From Coriobacteriia bacterium (lineage in GTDB: Bacteria > Actinomycetota > Coriobacteriia > Anaerosomatales > PALSA-660): a DNA stretch of 36,206 bases. Both the position numbers and the translations under genes were made by a program. The notes under the pieces were generated by a model that saw only the letters and a list, made by a program, of their open reading frames with translations, was not told where the DNA came from and ran no database searches. The first letter of the stretch is position 1; every line of letters starts with the position of its first letter. Location: the NCBI GenBank assembly GCA_025361445.1, contig JANYLP010000074.1, forward strand, positions 1 through 36,206, read 5' to 3'. Below, piece after piece: positions 1,298 to 35,718 of this stretch.

Positions 1298-2362
1298 CTA
1301 GTTCACCCGCACACACCCCGCCGCGCCCGCGCACGCGCGCCCGATCACGGCCGCCAGAACATCACGCGACTCGAGTGCCGCGACGAGGGCTTCTGCCTTG
1401 TCGGGGGCGACTGCCATCAGTAGGCCCCCTGAGGTCTGCGGGTCGCACAGGACGCGCCACGGAGTCAGATCCTCGACGGGCGAATCGGCGCTCAGCGGCG
1501 CCGGATGCGCGGGCCAGTCCGTGAACTCGGCTGCGTACTCGATAACATCCGCGGTACGCCCGGGCACGACGCCCTGCGTCGCGTAGCCCATCACGCCGTC
1601 GAGAAGCGGCAGCGCCTCGAAGTCAATCTCGCCGGCACACCCGCTTCCCAGAAGCATCTCGTGCAGGTGCCCGGCGATGCCGAAGCCCGTGACGTCGGTG
1701 GCCGCGGAAACGCCGACTTCCTGCATCGCTTCACAGGCAGCGCGGTTAAGTGTGGCCATCGACTCGATCGCCGCCCGCGCGCTGTTCTCGTCCTCGAGGC
1801 CGCGCTTGAGCGCCGTCCCGATGACGCCGGTGCCGAGCGGCTTGGTCAGAACGAGCACGTCACCGGGGGCGACCCCGACGTTGCGGACGACGCGGTCCGG
1901 ATGAACGATCCCGAGCACGGACAGGCCAAACTTCGGCTCGTTGTCATCGATGGTGTGGCCGCCAACGACGATCGCGCCGGCCTCGCGGCATATGTCACCG
2001 CCCCCGCGCAGCAGTTCAGCAACCACTTCCGGGCCGAGCGAGCACGGGAAGGCGACCATGTTCATCGCGGTGAGCGGACGTCCGCCCATCGCGTAGATAT
2101 CCGACAGCGCATTGGCCGCGGTGATGCGGCCGAAATCGTAGGGGTCGTCCACGATCGGCGTGAAGAAGTCGACGGTCAGCAGCAGCGCGGTGTTCTCATC
2201 GAGCCGGTACACGGCAGCGTCGTCCGAGGTCTCGAACCCGACCATGAGGTCTTCCGAGGCCGATGGGACGAGCGTGTCGAGGATCGCCTTGAGGTCCGCC
2301 GGACCGTACTTGGCGGCTCAACCGGCTTTCGACGAGAGCTGCGTGAGCCTGATGGGCTGCAC
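1298..2362 (-). CDS. selD: Selenide, water dikinase, selenocysteine-containing (selenoprotein SelD)
   Basis: SelD makes selenophosphate from selenide and ATP, the selenium donor for SelA. The gene reads from a GTG at 2360-2362 preceded by GAGGGAAGGA, through an in-frame TGA at 2318-2320, to TAG at 1298-1300. This gives 354 residues, close to the usual 340-350. Around the TGA the protein reads LSSKAG-Sec-AAKYGPADL, so Sec15 and Lys18 match the catalytic Cys17-x-x-Lys20 of E. coli SelD. Downstream are SDDAAVY (metal/ATP site), FTPIVDDPYDFGRITAANAL, SDIYAMGGRP, GGHTIDDNEPKFGLSVLG and the C-terminal DPQTSGGLL. A conventional call starting at the internal ATG at 2243-2245 would lack the active site. 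Reading TGA as Sec is inference from alignment and the adjacent selA; it needs selB and selC, which are not in the window. Confidence 0.93.
2296..2320 (-). promoter_or_regulatory. Putative bacterial SECIS element in selD
   Basis: Directly after the TGA the mRNA can pair CCGCC (2316-2312) with GGCGG (2300-2296), leaving an 11-nt loop, AAGUACGGUCC, with GGUC about 14-17 nt after the UGA. Bacterial SECIS hairpins recognised by SelB sit immediately 3' of the UGA and often carry a G-U pair in the apical loop. A competing GGUCC/GGACC fold is also possible, so the exact structure is uncertain. Confidence 0.55.
2318..2320 (-). other. In-frame TGA read as selenocysteine (SelD Sec15)
   Basis: The TGA codon lies at the SelD catalytic chalcogen position. 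The frame is open and conserved on both sides (LTQLSSKAG before, AAKYGP after), so this is recoding and not a sequencing error or truncation. Confidence 0.9.
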
Positions 2363-3040: not shown

Positions 3041-3970
3041 ATGCCGGTGATGTCGATCATCGTACCGTGCTTCAACGAGCAAGACTCGATCGTCAGATTC
3101 TACGAAGAGGTCCGTAGCGTCACCGCGACAATCGCCGGCGTCGAGCCTGAACTCGTCTTCGTGGATGATGGCTCGACCGACGCGACGCTGCACATCATCA
3201 AGGACCTGCGTTCACGCGATCCGCGGGTCCGGTTCGTCTCCCTGTCGCGCAACTTCGGCAAGGAGGCGGCGCTTCTCGCCGGCCTTCGCCACGCGAAGGG
3301 CGACTTCGTGGCGATGATGGACGTGGATCTGCAGGATCCGCCATCGCTGCTGCCCCGCATGTACGCGGCGGTCTCGTCCGGAGAATGGGACTGCGCCGGC
3401 GCGCGCCGCATCACCCGCGCCGGAGAGTCCCGGCTGCGCTCCTGGTGTGCGCGGCTGTTCTACCGCATCTTCAACGCCGCATCACACGTGGAGCTGGTGG
3501 ACGGCGCCCGCGACTTCAGGCTCATGACACGGCAGATGACCGACGCGGTGCTGGAACTCACCGAGGTGAACAGGTTCTCCAAAGGCATCCTGAGTTGGGT
3601 GGGCTTTAAGACGACATGGATCCCGTTCGAGAACGTCGAACGCGCCGCCGGAGCGAGCAAGTGGTCGTTCAAGGCGCTCGTTCACTACGCGACGGAAGGG
3701 ATCGTGGACTTCTCGACCGCACCACTCGAATTCGCGGCCGCCTTCGGACTCTGGTCGTGCCTGGTAGCCGTCGCCGGCGTCGTGGTGATCGTCGTGAGAC
3801 AGCTCGCGTTCGGCGATCCCGTTCCCGGATGGCCCTCGCTCGCCTGCCTCGTGCTGTTCATCGGGGGCCTGCAGCTGTTCACGATCGGCATCGTCGGTCA
3901 GTACCTCTCGCGCACGTATCTTGAAGCGAAGCGTCGCCCGGTCTACATCACCCGCGAGACCGATGGGTAG
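3041..3970 (+). CDS. GtrB/CsbB-type polyprenyl-phosphate glycosyltransferase (GT2)
   Basis: Family 2 glycosyltransferase of the DPM1/GtrB type, which transfers a sugar from a nucleotide donor to undecaprenyl phosphate on the cytoplasmic face. The 309-residue protein has the GT-A opening MSIIVPCFNEQDSI, then ELVFVDDGSTD, SLSRNFGKEAALLAGL, the metal-binding MMDVDLQDPP (DxD-like), and a second GT block RDFRLMTRQ. Two C-terminal transmembrane helices lie at about residues 235-255 and 265-290, followed by the family ending GQYLSRTYLEAKRRP. The start has a strong ribosome binding site, AAGGGGG. The stop overlaps the ATG of the following YfhO gene (3963), indicating translational coupling. The sugar donor cannot be read from sequence. 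Confidence 0.92.
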   Translation: MPVMSIIVPCFNEQDSIVRFYEEVRSVTATIAGVEPELVFVDDGSTDATLHIIKDLRSRDPRVRFVSLSRNFGKEAALLAGLRHAKGDFVAMMDVDLQDPPSLLPRMYAAVSSGEWDCAGARRITRAGESRLRSWCARLFYRIFNAASHVELVDGARDFRLMTRQMTDAVLELTEVNRFSKGILSWVGFKTTWIPFENVERAAGASKWSFKALVHYATEGIVDFSTAPLEFAAAFGLWSCLVAVAGVVVIVVRQLAFGDPVPGWPSLACLVLFIGGLQLFTIGIVGQYLSRTYLEAKRRPVYITRETDG

Positions 3971-6761
3971 CAGAGTGCAGACAGACGCCGCCGAGCCCGG
4001 CGTGACAGCGGAGGGCCCGACCGTGACGCTGAGGGACCGCCTCTTCGGAGTGCTCGCGTGCGCGGCCGCCGTCATCGGCTCCGGAGCGCTCGTCTTCCGC
4101 TATCTGTTCCAGTACGGCGTCTCCAACATCTGGTCCAACGACGGGGCCTCGCAGCACTTCCCTGCGTTCGTGTACTTCCACGAATGGATGACCGCGCTGC
4201 TGAGCGGACACGGCGCCGGCTACGGGATGTGGTCGTGGCGCCTCGGTTTGGGCGCCGACACGCTGACGACGCTGTCCTACTACTTGGGCGATCCCTTCGC
4301 GCTGCTCGCCATACCGTTCCCCGTACACATGCTCGAATACGTGTACGAGGGACTCTTCTTCCTCCGGATCTTGTGCGCCGGGCTCGCCGCGTACTACTAC
4401 CTGAGGACGATGAAGGCCCAGCGGTTCGCCGCGATCGCGGGCACGCTCGTCTACGTGTTCGCGGGCTTCACGCTGATCATCACGCTCCGGCACGCGTACT
4501 TCGCCAACGCGCTGGTCTTCTTCCCCCTGATACTGGTCGGCGTCGAAAAGATACTGGCACGCAAGCGGTGGTACCTGCTTGTGGGAGCGCTGTTCGTGGC
4601 TGCGGCCAGCAACTTCTACTTCTTCTACCAGATCGCGATCGTGGCGGTCCTCTACGCGGTCGTTCGTTATGTAGAGGTAATGAAGCCGGGCCAGCGCTTG
4701 CGTAAGCTCCTTCCGGAAGGGCTTCGGATCGGCAGTTGGTACGCGCTCGGCACGGTGCTCGCGGCCTTCATGCTGCTGCCCCTCGTTCTCGCCATCTTGA
4801 GCAGTTCCCGTGAGTCCTCCGCGTACGGGATGCCGATCCTCTACCGCCTGAACACGTACCTCAGCTACATCGTCGGGATCGCGTCCGCCCGCGGCGGGCA
4901 GAACTCCCTCTTCGGAGGGTTCGCGATAGTCGGGTTCATCGCGGCCGGCGTGGTGTTCCTGCGGCGTGGCAACTTCGCCCTGAAAGCGATGTTCGTGGCG
5001 TTCGCCGTCTTCATCGCTTTCCCGTTCTTCGGCCGACTGTTCAACGGCTTCGCGTTCCCGAGCTACCGGTTCACCTTCACATTGGGGTTGTTCTTCGCGA
5101 CCGCAGTCGCGATCGTGCTCTCGGACGCGCGACCGCTCTCCCGGCGCGAGTTGACGATCACCGGTGCGGGACTGCTGGTGTACGGAGCGGTGTCGGTGTG
5201 GGCGTGCGGCAGGCTCGGCTACCCGCTGTTGCTCATCGCTGTGCCCCTCGGCCTCGGCGCCGGGACCTGGGCGTTGCTGGCCGGCGAACGTCTCGTCTTC
5301 GAGCGGAGCGGCGCGCAGATACGCACGGTGATGGGCAGGCCTGTTCGCGTCGGAGTGTTCTTCCGCGCGGGCGTCGCGGTCCTGCTGGTCGGCGGCATCG
5401 CCGCTGCCGGAGTGGCCGACTACTCGAAGTCGTACAACACCAGGCTGACGACCTACCTGCGGTCCGGGACCGTGCTCGACCGGTACCTTCGCGATCCGGG
5501 GGCACTCGTCCCCTCGCTGCCCATCGACGGTTTGCAGCGAGTCGACAAGCAGACCGGCGCGCTGAAGAGCGACCTTGAGGTCTCCCAGAACAACGACCCG
5601 CTGGTGCAGGGATTCGCCGGTCTCGACTTCTACTACTCGGTGATGGACGGCGGCGTGCACGAGTATGCGAACGGGCTGGCGGACCGTTCGATGCGGTTCG
5701 CGTTCGACATCGAGGCCTTCGATGATCGCGCGGCGCTCGACACGCTGGCGGGGGTTCGGTACTACCTCGCGCCATCTCGCGGAGCGCAATACGTCCCCTA
5801 CGGATTCGCGCCCGTGTCCACTTTGGGCACCGCGACTGTCTACGAGAACCGGAACACGCTGCCCGTCGGCTACGTGTACCACTCGGCGATCTCGTCTGGG
5901 GTCTATGACGCGATGCCGCCACTCGACAAGCAGCAGGCGCTGCTGCAGGGCATCGTGCTCGCTGACGGAGCAGCATCGGCGACTCCGCGGATCACGCCAC
6001 CGTCGGACAGCATCGAGGTGACGTACACCCTGGCGGCCGACACGGGGATGTCGTGGGACCAAGAGACCCGGCGGGTGTCGGTCCATACCCGGGGATCCTC
6101 GGCCCGGCTGTCGTTCGCTCCCGTGCGTGACGCCGAACTCTATGTGGAGATGACCGGCATCCGCTTCGCGGGCACGACCCGGCTCTCTATCACCGTCGAT
6201 ACCGGTGGCGCGAGCAAGGCGACCCGTCTCCTCCCCCCCTCGGACAACTACTACTGGGGGAATCGGAGGATGCTCGTGAACCTCGGCTACTTCCCAAAGG
6301 GGACGAACAGCGCGAAGCTGACTTTCGGCGCCAAGACGAACGTGACGTACGATTCACTCAACATCATCGCGGTACCGATGGGGCACTTCGACCAACGTAT
6401 CGGACTGCTCGCCGCCGAGGGCATGCGCGACGTCCGAGTCGGCACCGACGCGCTGAGCGGGTCGGTCACGGCACACGGCGAAGGGGTGCTCTTCCTTAGC
6501 ATCCCCTACAGCACCGGTTGGAGCGCGACCGTGGACGGCGTGCGCGCGCCCATCATCAGGGCGAACGTGGGCTTCAGCGGTATCGCGGTCGCGAACGGTA
6601 CGCACACCGTGGAGCTACGGTACGTGACCCCGGGGTTGGTGCCGGGCACCGTGATCAGCGTCCTCGCGGTGCTCTTGGCCGCCGCGCTCGCCTTCGTGAC
6701 GGAGCGACGGCTGGCGAAGAGACGCACGAACGGGATTCTCGCCCGCAAGGGTGAAGACTGA
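3963..6761 (+). CDS. YfhO-family large membrane glycosyltransferase
   Basis: About 932-residue polytopic membrane protein of the YfhO family (GT-C-like fold). In B. subtilis and Listeria, YfhO relatives move a sugar from undecaprenyl phosphate to an extracytoplasmic polymer such as lipoteichoic acid. The first half holds about a dozen helices; the signature SNDGASQHFPAFVYFHEWM sits in the first outside loop, with MWSWRLGLGADTLTTLSYYLGDPFALLA after it. The second half, from about residue 480, is a soluble outside domain, and a single helix near the end precedes the basic tail RRLAKRRTNG. Start chosen at the ATG overlapping the preceding gene; GTG 3975 is an alternative. The stop is one base from the converging tRNA. 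The acceptor is unknown; an actinobacterium of this kind may use another polymer. Confidence 0.88.
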   Translation: MGSRVQTDAAEPGVTAEGPTVTLRDRLFGVLACAAAVIGSGALVFRYLFQYGVSNIWSNDGASQHFPAFVYFHEWMTALLSGHGAGYGMWSWRLGLGADTLTTLSYYLGDPFALLAIPFPVHMLEYVYEGLFFLRILCAGLAAYYYLRTMKAQRFAAIAGTLVYVFAGFTLIITLRHAYFANALVFFPLILVGVEKILARKRWYLLVGALFVAAASNFYFFYQIAIVAVLYAVVRYVEVMKPGQRLRKLLPEGLRIGSWYALGTVLAAFMLLPLVLAILSSSRESSAYGMPILYRLNTYLSYIVGIASARGGQNSLFGGFAIVGFIAAGVVFLRRGNFALKAMFVAFAVFIAFPFFGRLFNGFAFPSYRFTFTLGLFFATAVAIVLSDARPLSRRELTITGAGLLVYGAVSVWACGRLGYPLLLIAVPLGLGAGTWALLAGERLVFERSGAQIRTVMGRPVRVGVFFRAGVAVLLVGGIAAAGVADYSKSYNTRLTTYLRSGTVLDRYLRDPGALVPSLPIDGLQRVDKQTGALKSDLEVSQNNDPLVQGFAGLDFYYSVMDGGVHEYANGLADRSMRFAFDIEAFDDRAALDTLAGVRYYLAPSRGAQYVPYGFAPVSTLGTATVYENRNTLPVGYVYHSAISSGVYDAMPPLDKQQALLQGIVLADGAASATPRITPPSDSIEVTYTLAADTGMSWDQETRRVSVHTRGSSARLSFAPVRDAELYVEMTGIRFAGTTRLSITVDTGGASKATRLLPPSDNYYWGNRRMLVNLGYFPKGTNSAKLTFGAKTNVTYDSLNIIAVPMGHFDQRIGLLAAEGMRDVRVGTDALSGSVTAHGEGVLFLSIPYSTGWSATVDGVRAPIIRANVGFSGIAVANGTHTVELRYVTPGLVPGTVISVLAVLLAAALAFVTERRLAKRRTNGILARKGED

Positions 6762-6838
6762 TGGTGGCCCCCCTGGGATTCGAACCCAGACTACGCCGGG
6801 TTTAAGCCGGCTCCCTCTGCCAGTTGGGGTAGGGGGCC
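6762..6838 (-). tRNA. tRNA with anticodon UAA (UUA codon) and class I architecture
   Basis: Full cloverleaf on the minus strand with encoded CCA. The acceptor arm GGCCCCC/GGGGGCC pairs over 7 bp with discriminator A. The D-arm is CCCC..GAGG with one mismatch and the loop AACTGGCA. The anticodon arm GCCGG-CTTAAAC-CCGGC gives anticodon UAA. The variable loop is five bases (GTAGT), and the T-arm is CTGGG-TTCGAAT-CCCAG. UUA is a leucine codon, but bacterial tRNA-Leu normally has a long variable arm, so the amino acid identity is uncertain. The 5' end lies 3 nt behind the ppx stop, so it is probably cut from the ppx transcript or driven from within ppx. Structure confidence is high; identity is not. 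Confidence 0.88.
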
Positions 6839-6841
6839 CCT

Positions 6842-7834
6842 TCAGTCCTCGAGCCCATCCGGTCCCGCGAGCACGAGCCCGTACAGGATGTCATGTTCGC
6901 TGACGGTCGTCCCGCCGAGCCCCGAAAGCTCGATGATGGTCTCCAGTATGAGCGCGCCCGCCACGATGACGTCTGCCCGGGCGGGATCCATTCCCACGAC
7001 GCGCCTTCGCGTTGCGACGTCCATCGCCGCGAGCATCGCAAGCAGGTCCGCCACCTCACGTGCCGACAGATACGAGCCGTGCACCTTCGCGGGTTCGTAG
7101 ACCTCCAGCCCCTGGACGATGGAAACCAGGGTGGTACCCGTTCCGGCCAGCGTGATCAGCTCCTGCGGTCGCTCCCGCAGCGCTGCGAAGAACGGCCGCA
7201 TCTGCACCGCGGCCCAGTCGCGCGCCGCTTCCAGCTCTCCCGGCAGCGGCGGATCCGAGTGCAGGAACATGTCGAGCACGCGGCGCGAGCCGACATCGAG
7301 CGAGAGTCCGGACGCGATCCGGACCTCGCGGGCGCCGCCGGACTCACGGACCGACCCGAGCACCAGTTCCGTCGAACCCCCGCCGAGATCGGCGATCAGG
7401 ATGCCGTCGCCGGCAAGGCCGGTCGTGGCTCCCGCGAAGGACAGGCGCGCCTCGACGGGCCCCGCAATGATGAGGGGATGCACGCCCACAGCGGCGAGTG
7501 CCGCAAGGAACGCCGATCCGTTCGATGCGTCGCGCGCTGCGGAGGTCGCTACCGCGATCACGGACGCGGTGCCCGCTCCGGCGATGTCGGTGACGAAACC
7601 GGCCACCGCTGCCGCGACCCGGGCGATCCCTGCGCCCGACAGCGCGCCAGTCGCGTGGAGCCCCTCGCCGAGATGCGTCACGACGGTTCGCCGGAGCACC
7701 TCACCGACCTCGCGGCCATCGGTGTCGGCAACAAGCAGCCTCGTGGTGACGGTGCCGATGTCGATCGCCGCCACACGCAGGAAGCCCTGCGGGGGGGCCG
7801 GCGGAGAACCCTGGAATCGCTTCGCGGTGTTCAT
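6842..7834 (-). CDS. ppx: Ppx/GppA-family exopolyphosphatase/phosphatase
   Basis: Sugar kinase/Hsp70/actin-fold phosphatase that hydrolyses polyphosphate or pppGpp. The 330-residue protein has the phosphate-1 motif AAIDIGTVTTRLLVAD at about residues 22-37, the phosphate-2 motif ILIADLGGGSTELVLG near 150, and a C-terminal GTGTTLVSIVQG block. It resembles the short Ppx1/Ppx2 forms of actinobacteria (about 310-340 residues), which lack the C-terminal HD-type extension of E. coli Ppx. Start taken at the ATG at 7832-7834, 13 nt after the DUF501 stop; an upstream in-frame ATG at 7888 would overlap DUF501. It is the last protein gene of the housekeeping block and is followed directly by the tRNA. 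Polyphosphatase versus pppGpp hydrolase cannot be told apart here. Confidence 0.9.
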   Translation of the reverse strand: MNTAKRFQGSPPAPPQGFLRVAAIDIGTVTTRLLVADTDGREVGEVLRRTVVTHLGEGLHATGALSGAGIARVAAAVAGFVTDIAGAGTASVIAVATSAARDASNGSAFLAALAAVGVHPLIIAGPVEARLSFAGATTGLAGDGILIADLGGGSTELVLGSVRESGGAREVRIASGLSLDVGSRRVLDMFLHSDPPLPGELEAARDWAAVQMRPFFAALRERPQELITLAGTGTTLVSIVQGLEVYEPAKVHGSYLSAREVADLLAMLAAMDVATRRRVVGMDPARADVIVAGALILETIIELSGLGGTTVSEHDILYGLVLAGPDGLED

Positions 7835-7847
7835 GACCGCGATGCTA

Positions 7848-8354
7848 TCAGCCCGCGGACGTGCGTGGTTGGCATCGGGTATCCGCACACGCTTCTCCCG
7901 CCGGTGGCAGGATCATCGCGGCGACGGCCTCCCCGATCGGGTCGGGGAGGCCGGAGAGGAACGCGGCGAGCCGAGCGTGAAGGCACTTCACCGCGAGCGG
8001 ATCGACCTGCCCCGCGATGCCGACACTCTCACACGGGTCCGTTCCGTCGCCCTCAGACCGACGCGCCTCGCGGTAGGCGGCGTCGGCCTTCGCGACAGCG
8101 TCCGCAAACGCGACATCGCTCGCAACGTGCTCGGAAAACCGGGCGTTCTCGCCGGCCGATTCGAGATCGTGCACGGCGGCAACCAACTGCGGACACGTGA
8201 GCCAGAACGTGGTGGGAAACGGCGACCCATCCTCAAGCACCGGCGCCACAGCGATCACGAGCGGAGCTTGGCTCACGCACCGCGCCGCGACGCGCCATCG
8301 TCCGCGCGGCGGACGTCCCAGCTGCAAGGAGACGAGCGCCTCGTCAGGGTTCAA
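7848..8354 (-). CDS. DUF501 family protein
   Basis: 168-residue protein of the actinobacterial DUF501 family, function unknown. Recognisable blocks are LQLGRPPRGRWRVAARC near the start, PTTFWLTCPQLVAAVHDLES in the middle, and VKCLHARLAAFLSGLPDPIGE near the end with a CLHA-type Cys/His pair. DUF501 genes are habitually placed between ftsB and ppx downstream of enolase, exactly as here. It starts with TTG at 8354 and overlaps the end of the ftsB-like gene by 11 nt, which implies translational coupling. Conserved Cys and His residues suggest metal binding, but that is only a guess. Confidence 0.88.
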   Translation of the reverse strand: MNPDEALVSLQLGRPPRGRWRVAARCVSQAPLVIAVAPVLEDGSPFPTTFWLTCPQLVAAVHDLESAGENARFSEHVASDVAFADAVAKADAAYREARRSEGDGTDPCESVGIAGQVDPLAVKCLHARLAAFLSGLPDPIGEAVAAMILPPAGEACADTRCQPRTSAG

Positions 8355-32789: not shown

Positions 32790-35435
32790 TTAGCGAACCT
32801 GGATCTGAAGCGTCGAGCTGGATACGCGCACGTGGGTCGCCTTGGTCGCGAGGACGATCCGGTAGGAGTGGGCACCACGCCTCGAGAACCCGACCCTGGC
32901 TGCGTAGCGACCCGCTGAGCTCGTCCTCACGCGCCGGACCGTTCTCCACGCGCCGCGAACCGACCGCTGCAGCAGTACGGTGACCTTGCTCGCAGCGCCG
33001 ACGACCCCGCTCACGACCACGTGGCTCGTCCTGCGGACGATCCTCTTCGAGGAGCGGATCGTCACGCGTGGCTGCACGGTGATGGTGACGGTGGCCGAGA
33101 CGGCACCCGTCTCGACAAGCACCGTGCGGTACTGAGTGCTGACGAGCGGGGTCACGGCGAGCTGAGCAAGGCCGCTCGCGTCGGTCGTCAGTGTTGCCAC
33201 TGTCGACCAGACGCCCGTGCCAGAGTTGAACTTCTCGACCCGCACGATCGTCGCGTAGCCGGGGTTCACAGCGATCGTGAGGGTGCCGGACGCGCCGTAG
33301 TCGAGTGTCGAGGGCGAGCCCTGCAGGTTCGGAGTCGCGATCACGGACGGTACTACCGGCGCGGGCGGGACTGCGGGCTCGACAGGCGGTACTACCGGCG
33401 CGGGCGGGACTACGGGCTCGACCGGCGGTACTACCGGCGCGGGCGGGACTACGGGCTCGACCGGCGGGGCCGTGAGCTCGACCAGATCCATGAGCTGCAG
33501 CGTGCCTCCCGCATTGCGGTACTCGACGCGAACCGTGTTGATGCCGGTGTTGGGAAGCGTGATCTGCGCGGTAGCTGCGTATGCGATCCAGGGACCGAAG
33601 ACGCCGGTGCCGGGATCGATCCGCATCTCGGTCGCCCCGGTGATCGCGGAGGCGATCGAGATGTCAGCGGAGGCGACCTGGTCGGCGCCGGCCGCGGCGA
33701 TCATGGTGCCGGCCGGGACCGGGACGGTGATCGTGAAGCTCGCGGACGTGCGAGCCTCGATGTTGCCGGCCGCGTCGACGGACCAGAACTGGATAGTGTG
33801 CGCGCCGGGGGCCGTGACGTTGATGGTCGTACCAGCGGTCTGCACTCCACCGTCAAGCGTGAAGTAGGTGGCGGTCACGCCGACGTTGTCGGTTGCCGAC
33901 AGCTTGATGATGGCTGAGCTGAGGTAGGTGGCCTTGGCATCGGAGTTCGTGACGGGAGCGGTGGTGTCCGCGGGCGGAAGAACCGGGGCGATCTTCAGAA
34001 GGACGATTCCGTCGCGCGGCTGCAGGGTGACGGAGGTGACGTCCGTGCCGTCGTTGACGCTGGGGGCCTGGGTTCCCTTGATCTTGCGGTAGGTCCCACC
34101 GAGCTGGACGGTGACTGCGCTGGCGGTCGGGTTCACGAGGGCGATGCCGCTGGTGAAGTCACGACGCCACGCGTTCCCGGCCTTGGCCATCGGACCCGTC
34201 GGCTGGCCCAGATACCCGCGGCCCGCTCCGGCGTTGTCGTACTCGTCGAACCAATCAAGCCCGTTCCATGAGTGCTCCCAGGAGGAACGTGCGTAGGAGA
34301 AGGTGCCGTCACTCATGAGGGCGGAGGTAAGACCAAACCGCATCAGCTGGTAGTCGTTGGCGGCGCCGTAGGTCTGGATGAGCGTCAGGTTCGGCAAGGC
34401 GGACTTGCTAGCCCACTCAGCGTAGGACGCGTGTGGAGCGGCGTACGGGCCGACGAACACGATATTCCATGTAGCCAGAGCGATGTTCGTGTAGGGAAAC
34501 TCCTCGAACGCGTTGCCGTTGAGGTTGAAGTTGCGCATGTTGCCGTTGCCGATGAGCGCCCTGGTGCCAGCCATGGCCCGCATCGAGTTGCCGTAGGCGA
34601 TGGCGCCGGCGTTCCAAGCGCTGTTGAGCGCCGCGTAGCCGTCGGTGACCGGCGTGTTCGTGCGCAGAGCATCGATCGAACGGGCCCTCGACGGGTCGAC
34701 CATCCAGGACACGTTGGACGAGAGGACATCGATGAAGAGGCCGTCCCACGGCGCGGCGTTGAGGATGCCCTGCCCGCGACGCGTGTTCCAGTCACCCCAT
34801 GTCTCGAGTCCGTAGCCGACATCCCGCTTCGGGCAGTTGCTCGAGAGGTCCATCGTGATTGTGCCGGGCCAGGCGGTGACGACGGACGCGATGCGCGTCC
34901 CAGCCGCGTGGGTTGCGGGGGGGTTGACCGGGCCGCGAGCTGTGACGGTCAGCACCGATCCGTTGATCGCATCGATGTGCACGAGCTCGTGGTACACGAG
35001 AGCCATCTCGCCGACGGCGAACTTGGTCGGGTCGGCGACGGTGATCGATGTGGTCGAGGCGTTGATCGCGGCAGTGAGCGTGGAGCCGACCTGGGTCAGC
35101 ATCCAGTCGGTCGACACAGTGCGAAGCTCGACGTTCACCGAGTGGTTGTAGTCCGACAGGTAGTAGTTGATATCGGTCGCATCCGTTGTGCCCAGGATGA
35201 TGATGCTCGGATTCGCTGCGCGCAGGGCCGGGATGCGATTCGCGTCGTGGTTCTGCAGCGCAATCCAATCGGCACGTGCAAGACTCGCAGCGGACTGCGT
35301 GCTCGCATCGGCCCACCACACGGCGAGGCGCGGGAACGACGGCACCGTGGCGGCCTTGGCAACCAGCGGTCCGGACACGATGAGGATCAGCGACGCGATC
35401 GCCGCGAACATGACGAAAGCCGACTTCGCCATCAT
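32790..35435 (-). CDS. Secreted GHL15-like putative glycoside hydrolase with Ig-like and Pro-rich repeat domains
   Basis: About 881-residue secreted protein. Signal MMAKSAFVMFAAIASLILIV with cleavage near AKA. Residues about 30-490 resemble hypothetical glycosyl hydrolase family GHL15: PRLAVWWADAS, IIILGTTDATDIN, DGLFIDVLSSN, NGNAFEEFPYTNIALATW and a closing RDGIVLLKI. A small beta insert (ITVADPTKFAVGEMALVYH, then VLTVTARGPVNPP) interrupts the barrel. Later come a TDNVGVTATYFTLDGG / HTIQFWSVDAAGNIE Ig-like domain, a PVEPVVPPAPVVP linker, and two C-terminal Ig-like domains, the last very Arg/Ser-rich. Starts at GTG 35474 or TTG 35531 are possible. Its leader carries a c-di-GMP riboswitch. The glycan target is unknown. 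Confidence 0.82.
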   Translation of the reverse strand: MMAKSAFVMFAAIASLILIVSGPLVAKAATVPSFPRLAVWWADASTQSAASLARADWIALQNHDANRIPALRAANPSIIILGTTDATDINYYLSDYNHSVNVELRTVSTDWMLTQVGSTLTAAINASTTSITVADPTKFAVGEMALVYHELVHIDAINGSVLTVTARGPVNPPATHAAGTRIASVVTAWPGTITMDLSSNCPKRDVGYGLETWGDWNTRRGQGILNAAPWDGLFIDVLSSNVSWMVDPSRARSIDALRTNTPVTDGYAALNSAWNAGAIAYGNSMRAMAGTRALIGNGNMRNFNLNGNAFEEFPYTNIALATWNIVFVGPYAAPHASYAEWASKSALPNLTLIQTYGAANDYQLMRFGLTSALMSDGTFSYARSSWEHSWNGLDWFDEYDNAGAGRGYLGQPTGPMAKAGNAWRRDFTSGIALVNPTASAVTVQLGGTYRKIKGTQAPSVNDGTDVTSVTLQPRDGIVLLKIAPVLPPADTTAPVTNSDAKATYLSSAIIKLSATDNVGVTATYFTLDGGVQTAGTTINVTAPGAHTIQFWSVDAAGNIEARTSASFTITVPVPAGTMIAAAGADQVASADISIASAITGATEMRIDPGTGVFGPWIAYAATAQITLPNTGINTVRVEYRNAGGTLQLMDLVELTAPPVEPVVPPAPVVPPVEPVVPPAPVVPPVEPAVPPAPVVPSVIATPNLQGSPSTLDYGASGTLTIAVNPGYATIVRVEKFNSGTGVWSTVATLTTDASGLAQLAVTPLVSTQYRTVLVETGAVSATVTITVQPRVTIRSSKRIVRRTSHVVVSGVVGAASKVTVLLQRSVRGAWRTVRRVRTSSAGRYAARVGFSRRGAHSYRIVLATKATHVRVSSSTLQIQVR
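33349..33465. repeat. Three tandem 39-bp repeats encoding a PVEPVVPPAPVVP linker
   Basis: Three head-to-tail 39-bp units (33349-33387, 33388-33426, 33427-33465), nearly identical, encode 13-residue Pro/Val/Glu units in the linker of the GHL15-like protein. Units 2 and 3 are identical; unit 1 differs at two positions (GCGGG and ACA). Such repeats may change copy number by slippage. Confidence 0.93.
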
Positions 35436-35506
35436 TCCCGGCTTGTCGGTGTGTGCGGTGGTGGTGTGGTACACGGTGCTCGCCTCGCAGGCTCTACGAG
35501 ACGCAG

Positions 35507-35552
35507 CGGACCCGATCTCCTCTGCTAACAAGCCGAGAGGGAATCGGGTCCG
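35507..35552 (-). promoter_or_regulatory. Expression-platform hairpin downstream of c-di-GMP riboswitch
   Basis: On the transcribed strand CGGACCCGAT pairs perfectly with ATCGGGTCCG, and inside it CCTCT pairs with AGAGG around a 12-nt loop. It lies 17 nt after the aptamer and 70 nt before the chosen start. There is no U-tract, so it could be a Rho-linked or pause structure, or act on translation, and not a standard intrinsic terminator. Confidence 0.55.
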
Positions 35553-35569: not shown

Positions 35570-35662
35570 CCGACGGCAACCCGGCTGTCATGGGGAGTCC
35601 AGAAGACTCCCGTTAGACCCGTGGCTTTGCGAGGTCGACTTTCGCCGACTGTGCCTTTGTCG
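35570..35662 (-). ncRNA. Cyclic di-GMP-I (GEMM-I) riboswitch
   Basis: The minus-strand leader of the GHL15-like gene matches the GEMM-I aptamer. ACAAAGGCACA is followed by a 6-bp helix, GTCGGC-GAAA-GTCGAC, with a GNRA tetraloop. The conserved core CGCAAAGCCACGGG and CTAA come next, with a P3 helix GGGAGTC/GACTCCC, then the tetraloop receptor and ligand-contact strand ATGACAGCCGGGTTGCC. These are the hallmark blocks of the class I c-di-GMP aptamer. It points towards the secreted glycoside hydrolase gene, making that gene its likely target. Confidence 0.92.
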
Positions 35663-35718
35663 CGGTGAGGATCGCCGCTGCGTCGATTTTCAAAGTCAGA
35701 AGGTCTATCGGAACGCGA

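Follow-up and report, generated by a model that had tools for sequence, protein, structure and literature searches.

The window, that is, the whole 36,206-nt stretch of DNA analysed here, is contig C73 of a Coriobacteriia genome of 1.57 Mb that is 91% complete. Its minus strand carries a tRNA gene at 6762–6838, and the features of the locus are as follows:

3921–6761, plus strand: YfhO membrane protein gene, converging on the tRNA gene (Pfam PF09586).
6762–6838, minus strand: class I tRNA-Leu(UAA), 77 nt, with encoded CCA and a short variable loop (ARAGORN, RNA folding, RF00005, covariation).
6762–6765, minus strand: discriminator A73 and encoded CCA end (from the sequence; A73 is found in 81/81 short forms).
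6790–6794, minus strand: variable loop GUAGU, 5 nt, with U48 as its last base; the site of the long arm in class II relatives (alignment).
6802–6804, minus strand: UAA anticodon within the loop CUUAAAC (sequence, ARAGORN).
6842–7888, minus strand: ppx, of the Ppx/GppA phosphatase family, directly upstream of the tRNA gene (Pfam PF02541).

A preliminary description had called a class I tRNA with a UAA anticodon here, with all stems paired, CCA encoded and a 5-nt variable loop, and ARAGORN, folding and RF00005 all agree with that call. ARAGORN labels the gene tRNA-Leu(taa), RNA folding gives a full cloverleaf with stems of 7/3/5/5 pairs and a 5-nt variable loop, and in the genome search RF00005 scored 51.3 bits, the cut-off being 29. 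The layout of the molecule is GGCCCCC-UA-CCC-CAACUGGCAGA-GGG-A-GCCGG-CUUAAAC-CCGGC-GUAGU-CUGGG-UUCGAAU-CCCAG-GGGGGCC-ACCA. The D-stem has three pairs only and, with its 11-nt loop, is of the leucine type; C13 faces A22, which is unusual. The anticodon loop has 7 nt, with U33 and the leucine anticodon UAA. The variable loop falls in the class I range of 4–5 nt, and the class II long arm of at least 10 nt is absent, so that the oddity first noted, a leucine anticodon on a class I molecule, is real. A tRNA-Sec or allo-tRNA reading was rejected, the acceptor branch being 7+5 with a 5-nt loop, where a longer branch and a long arm are required. In 15 distinct relatives 99% of stem cells were paired and 12 of 20 pairs had changed on both sides; covariation was 0.658, versus 0.200 in shuffles. 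The single-sequence folding z-score of -1.35 is too weak to add anything to the covariation. This tRNA is missing from a gathering scan of the window with Rfam, despite its score with the same family in the genome search; tRNAs with an unusual D-arm, such as this one, may be lost through speed filters.

The tight fit of the gene between the phosphatase gene and the converging membrane gene was also as first described. The YfhO gene ends at 6761 and abuts the CCA of the tRNA, and the ppx stop is 3 nt from the tRNA start; yet the ppx linkage is common to long-arm relatives and is not peculiar to this gene. In most sister families read, a class II tRNA-Leu(UAA) gene follows ppx, as a rule at a distance of no more than about 100 nt, and the gap differs between copies. 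The linkage is old and common to short and long forms; named relatives of the window's ppx locus are Coriobacteriia metagenome bins. Processing of the tRNA out of a ppx transcript is plausible: the tRNA would be transcribed together with ppx, and RNase P would free its 5' end from the message, with 3' processing in addition. In L042 and L043, of genus g45, the ppx frame enters the tRNA (1494–1569) by 10 nt, and the ppx stop codon UAG is made up of tRNA positions U8-A9-G10. Genome G005 has a near-identical pair of short tRNA genes on different contigs (C32:583-659 and C111:8-84), both near ppx, which may reflect a strain mixture. Elsewhere in the window an AIR-synthase-like gene (1298–2245, minus strand), taken to be selD, is situated 4.5 kb from the tRNA gene, and a c-di-GMP-I-GGC riboswitch aptamer (35571–35664, minus strand; 60.9 bits) lies directly upstream of a gene at 32790–35531 that matches GHL15, a hypothetical glycosyl hydrolase. 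In genome G069 a tRNA-Sec gene (L151, 14934–15030) is found 5 kb from the short tRNA-Leu gene.

The leucine identity set of E. coli comprises A73, A14, A15-U48, G18G19 and A20a (PMC9976931), and all of these elements are present in the 6762–6838 tRNA. Moreover, U8, A14A15, U48, the GGNA motif (G18 G19 N20 A20a) and A73 were found in 81/81 short and 58/58 long tRNA-Leu genes. Bacterial LeuRS recognises A73, A15-U48, G18G19 and A20a and does not need the long arm, and in E. coli, tRNA-Leu variants that have neither the anticodon arm nor the long arm remain active (PMC9976931). Because the enzyme reads these elements instead, the long arm could vanish without loss of leucine identity. There was at most one LeuRS-level match per searched genome, whole or in pieces, with fragments only in some incomplete bins.

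UUA had been expected to be very rare, and it is: 3 of the 986 leucine codons in 26 window genes (0.3%) are UUA. A set of 62 UUA codons was taken from short-form Coriobacteriia genomes outside the window's own family (f1) and aligned with homologous residues. Of the residues facing all 62 codons 51% were Leu and 12% Ile, other leucine codons facing Leu at 60–67%; no residue rivalled leucine. The preliminary description had proposed charging with a residue other than leucine, which would mean that UUA is recoded. Such recoding would go with a class I form that bears a leucine anticodon, and would be cheap for so rare a codon. We nevertheless consider it very improbable, given that at conserved columns leucine faces 22 of 27 UUA codons and the runner-up, Ile, 2, that the LeuRS identity elements are intact in every copy (81/81), and that phages with short forms infect standard-code hosts, e.g., Citrobacter and Salmonella. 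With at most one LeuRS-level match per genome and UUA aligned with leucine, there is no need to invoke recoding or a second enzyme dedicated to this tRNA.

tRNA sets were read in four genomes, namely G069 (98% complete), G002 and the single-contig G306 and G365; the window's own genome is incomplete. A second, class II tRNA-Leu(UAA), for which a search had been proposed, was absent from all four sets. Among the 45 tRNA matches of G069 are class II tRNA-Leu genes for CAA, TAG, CAG and GAG, and UAA only as the short gene; the tRNA-Sec of this genome is separate from the short tRNA-Leu. The G002 set is like that of G069, with UAA only as the short gene. G306 and G365 belong to other families of the phylum: the former has four class II tRNA-Leu genes plus the short UAA gene, and in the latter GAG, CAG and TAG are class II while UAA and CAA are both short. 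As judged from these gene sets, the short form is the UUA reader, and the sole one found, in the four genomes. This bears on the earlier suggestion of a regulatory or otherwise non-standard tRNA, which is not supported. A regulatory or decayed tRNA-like RNA that takes no part in translation would suit a gene inside the ppx transcript, 3 nt from the stop codon, with no space outside ppx where it could have its own promoter. Its strong compensatory changes, its conservation over many genera and the finding of no other UUA reader in genomes that do use the codon make this the least credible of the readings considered.

A sole UUA reader for a codon this scarce is also what a bldA-like switch would have, in which a scarce UUA tRNA limits regulatory genes that contain UUA; the 0.3% usage in the window is as bldA-type control would need (PMC4255298). 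Here, however, in a small sample, the three UUA codons of the window are in mfd, in a DUF554-like gene and in the GHL15 gene, none of them a regulator, and in relatives UUA occurs in rpoB-region and leuS genes. In addition, bldA may have no part in development outside Streptomycineae (PMC4255298). We regard such a switch as quite improbable.

For comparison with other tRNAs, the variable region was removed before the short form was matched. The nearest tRNAs beyond the short-form group were class II tRNA-Leu(UAA), with tRNA-Lys not far behind: the 6762–6838 tRNA had an identity of 0.74 to class II tRNA-Leu(UAA) versus 0.69 to tRNA-Lys, and a short copy from family f20 had 0.85 versus 0.81 to tRNA-Lys, the next isotype. 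The anticodon arm, GCGGACTTAAAATCCGC, is letter-identical in the short tRNA of L042 and the class II tRNAs of L065 and L095. In sister-family Coriobacteriia tRNA-Leu(UAA) is 83–88 nt long and has the long arm, and because it occupies the same place after ppx in most of those read, the short and class II tRNA-Leu(UAA) genes look like the same gene. The class II tRNAs (L095, L065, L153) resemble the short form in the anticodon arm, the type of acceptor and T arm, the 11-nt D-loop with GGCA, A15-U48, A73 and the place after ppx; they differ in the long variable arm, in place of 5 nt, and in the core.

Core positions 9, 12 and 13 were rewired along with the arm. A9, C12 and C13 are found in 80, 80 and 79 of 81 short forms, percentages that lean toward this signature because the covariance model that picked up most of them was built on it, the BLAST-found phage and plasmid copies being less affected; G9, G12 and G13 are found in 47, 47 and 53 of 58 long forms. 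Arm loss goes with a core of A9, C12:G23 and C13 in place of G9, G12:C23 and G13. In the window's own order the class II core is A9, C12:G23, G13: eleven long forms, all tRNA-Leu(UAA) with the string UAUCCG, have A9 and C12. In these the 9-12-23 change is already there although the arm is still on. C13 in a long form occurs only in G121, a congener of G285, whose short form keeps G9 and G12. The genus of these two has both forms, short in L094 (G285:C18:23566-23642) and long in L173 (G121). The G285 short form, with a core lacking A9 and C12, looks like a separate, recent arm loss, an assembly or sequencing error being possible.

These comparisons also bear on an origin from another class I tRNA, Lys being the nearest, by an anticodon change followed by spread, with no arm loss at all. 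The 0.81 identity of the f20 copy to a tRNA-Lys and the close likeness of short forms from distant hosts and phages (93% for P-RSM6) would accord with it. The class II tRNA-Leu(UAA) is closer, though, and sits in the same place after ppx; it shares the 11-nt D-loop and A15-U48; and the window's order has A9 and C12:G23 with the long arm still present. We think a class I origin unlikely. It is most likely, as the sequence comparisons suggest, that the 6762–6838 gene encodes a leucine tRNA that has passed from a class II to a class I form.

In the window's family, f1, the tRNA was found in 8/8 genomes at 91–100% identity. A covariance model made from the 15 distinct copies was run on 296 Coriobacteriia genomes, of which 21 (families f1, f6, f17, f20 and f21) had scores of at least 95; G285 scored 83.5, and every other match was at or below 70.5, many of the next-best being long-arm tRNA-Leu(UAA). 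On a LeuRS tree of sampled Coriobacteriia the short form needs 3 changes, at least 2 of them forced by well-supported branches. A single origin of all short forms was considered in this light, but sequences of 77 nt are too short to decide between histories; the changes may reflect repeated loss, reversal or transfer. More widely, the same model, run on a sample of 396 Actinomycetota genomes that took in Coriobacteriia and the window itself, gave a match of about 73–79 nt with E <= 1e-17 in 101 of them. About 48 further genes read by ARAGORN were all tRNA-Leu, mostly TAA, then CAA, with one TAG. In named records, short tRNA-Leu genes were found in Nocardia farcinica and Arthrobacter (TAA), in Nonomuraea (CAA) and on a Mycolicibacterium alvei plasmid (CAG). 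A Thermomicrobium match was discarded, the tRNA there being Lys and not Leu. The MenT3 paper remarks that tRNA-Leu-2, -3 and -5 of M. tuberculosis have long loops (PMC11541572); two short tRNA-Leu in that species would fit the remark.

Short tRNA-Leu genes with several Leu anticodons also occur in phages of E. coli relatives, Mycobacterium, Acinetobacter, Enterococcus and cyanobacteria: cyanophage P-RSM6 (TAA, 93% alike), Citrobacter phage Moogle (TAG, CAA), the T5-like Salmonella phage SH9 (TAA), Mycobacterium phage Mikro (GAG, CAA), Corynebacterium phage StAB (CAA), an Acinetobacter phage (TAG, TAA), Enterococcus phage phiSHEF16 (TAG) and Erwinia phage M7 (AAG, TAA). Phage tRNA arrays (L274, L287, L289 and L290) carry short tRNA-Leu with TAG, CAA, GAG and AAG, some beside long ones. 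Public phage records annotate the short genes as tRNA-Leu, so the sequences have not been hidden. The phage tRNAs (P-RSM6, Moogle, SH9, Mikro, StAB) are like the 6762–6838 tRNA in class I size, in annotation and mostly in the core signature; they differ in being phage-borne and in their range of anticodons (TAA, TAG, CAA, GAG, AAG). Occurrence across many Actinomycetota and phages argues for a real variant and not for recoding or a regulatory RNA. A bolder and decidedly speculative idea is that the short-arm leucine tRNAs form a single ancient lineage, marked by the rewired core, that spread between phages and Actinomycetota and replaced host long-arm UUR tRNAs, possibly by escaping SerRS as well as toxins or defence enzymes that take hold of the class II long arm.

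In sum, we give a probability of roughly 0.93 to the reading, made from sequence, that 6762–6838 encodes an ordinary-functioning leucine tRNA, the cell's UUA reader, in a lineage that lost the long arm and took on a class I style core (A9, C12:G23, C13). The tRNA would be charged with leucine by the cell's single, ordinary LeuRS and then used at UUA. Without the arm it should escape being mistaken for tRNA-Ser by SerRS; arm loss would remove a feature that SerRS needs, and leucine and serine identities would be easier to keep apart.

Several known systems invite comparison. Streptomyces bldA tRNA-Leu(UAA) is likewise a rare-UUA reader in an actinobacterium, but it is tied to development, and there is no sign of such a role for the 6762–6838 tRNA. 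The bldA tRNA is class II. Bacterial and archaeal/eukaryal tRNA-Tyr are also one family whose long arm differs by lineage; there the change separates domains, whereas the tRNA-Leu change splits one phylum, and even one class. Animal mitochondrial tRNA-Leu(UUR) also serves UUR codons without a long variable arm, with identity via A73 and A14 (PMC9976931), but it is organellar, is served by a LeuRS of its own and has a floppy anticodon branch, while the 6762–6838 gene is on a bacterial chromosome and gives a regular GC-rich cloverleaf. A 2023 identity review gives tRNA-Leu a long arm everywhere but in animal mitochondria (PMC9976931), and the portion seen of a review of non-canonical tRNAs places tRNA-Leu in class II and mentions no bacterial exception (PMC7609411). 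No description of a short bacterial tRNA-Leu was found in the open-access literature, in which this form, seemingly a leucine tRNA in function and not class II in structure, seems to have gone unremarked.

The short tRNA-Leu is apparently a real, overlooked tRNA variant. The variable-arm class has been regarded as constant in tRNA-Leu, and in one bacterial phylum sister families differ in it. Since some long-arm relatives already possess part of the altered core, the order of steps in a change of class is open to study and to rebuilding in vitro. Natural short leucine tRNAs call for caution in annotating tRNAs and in using isotype models, and offer material for work on discrimination between LeuRS and SerRS.
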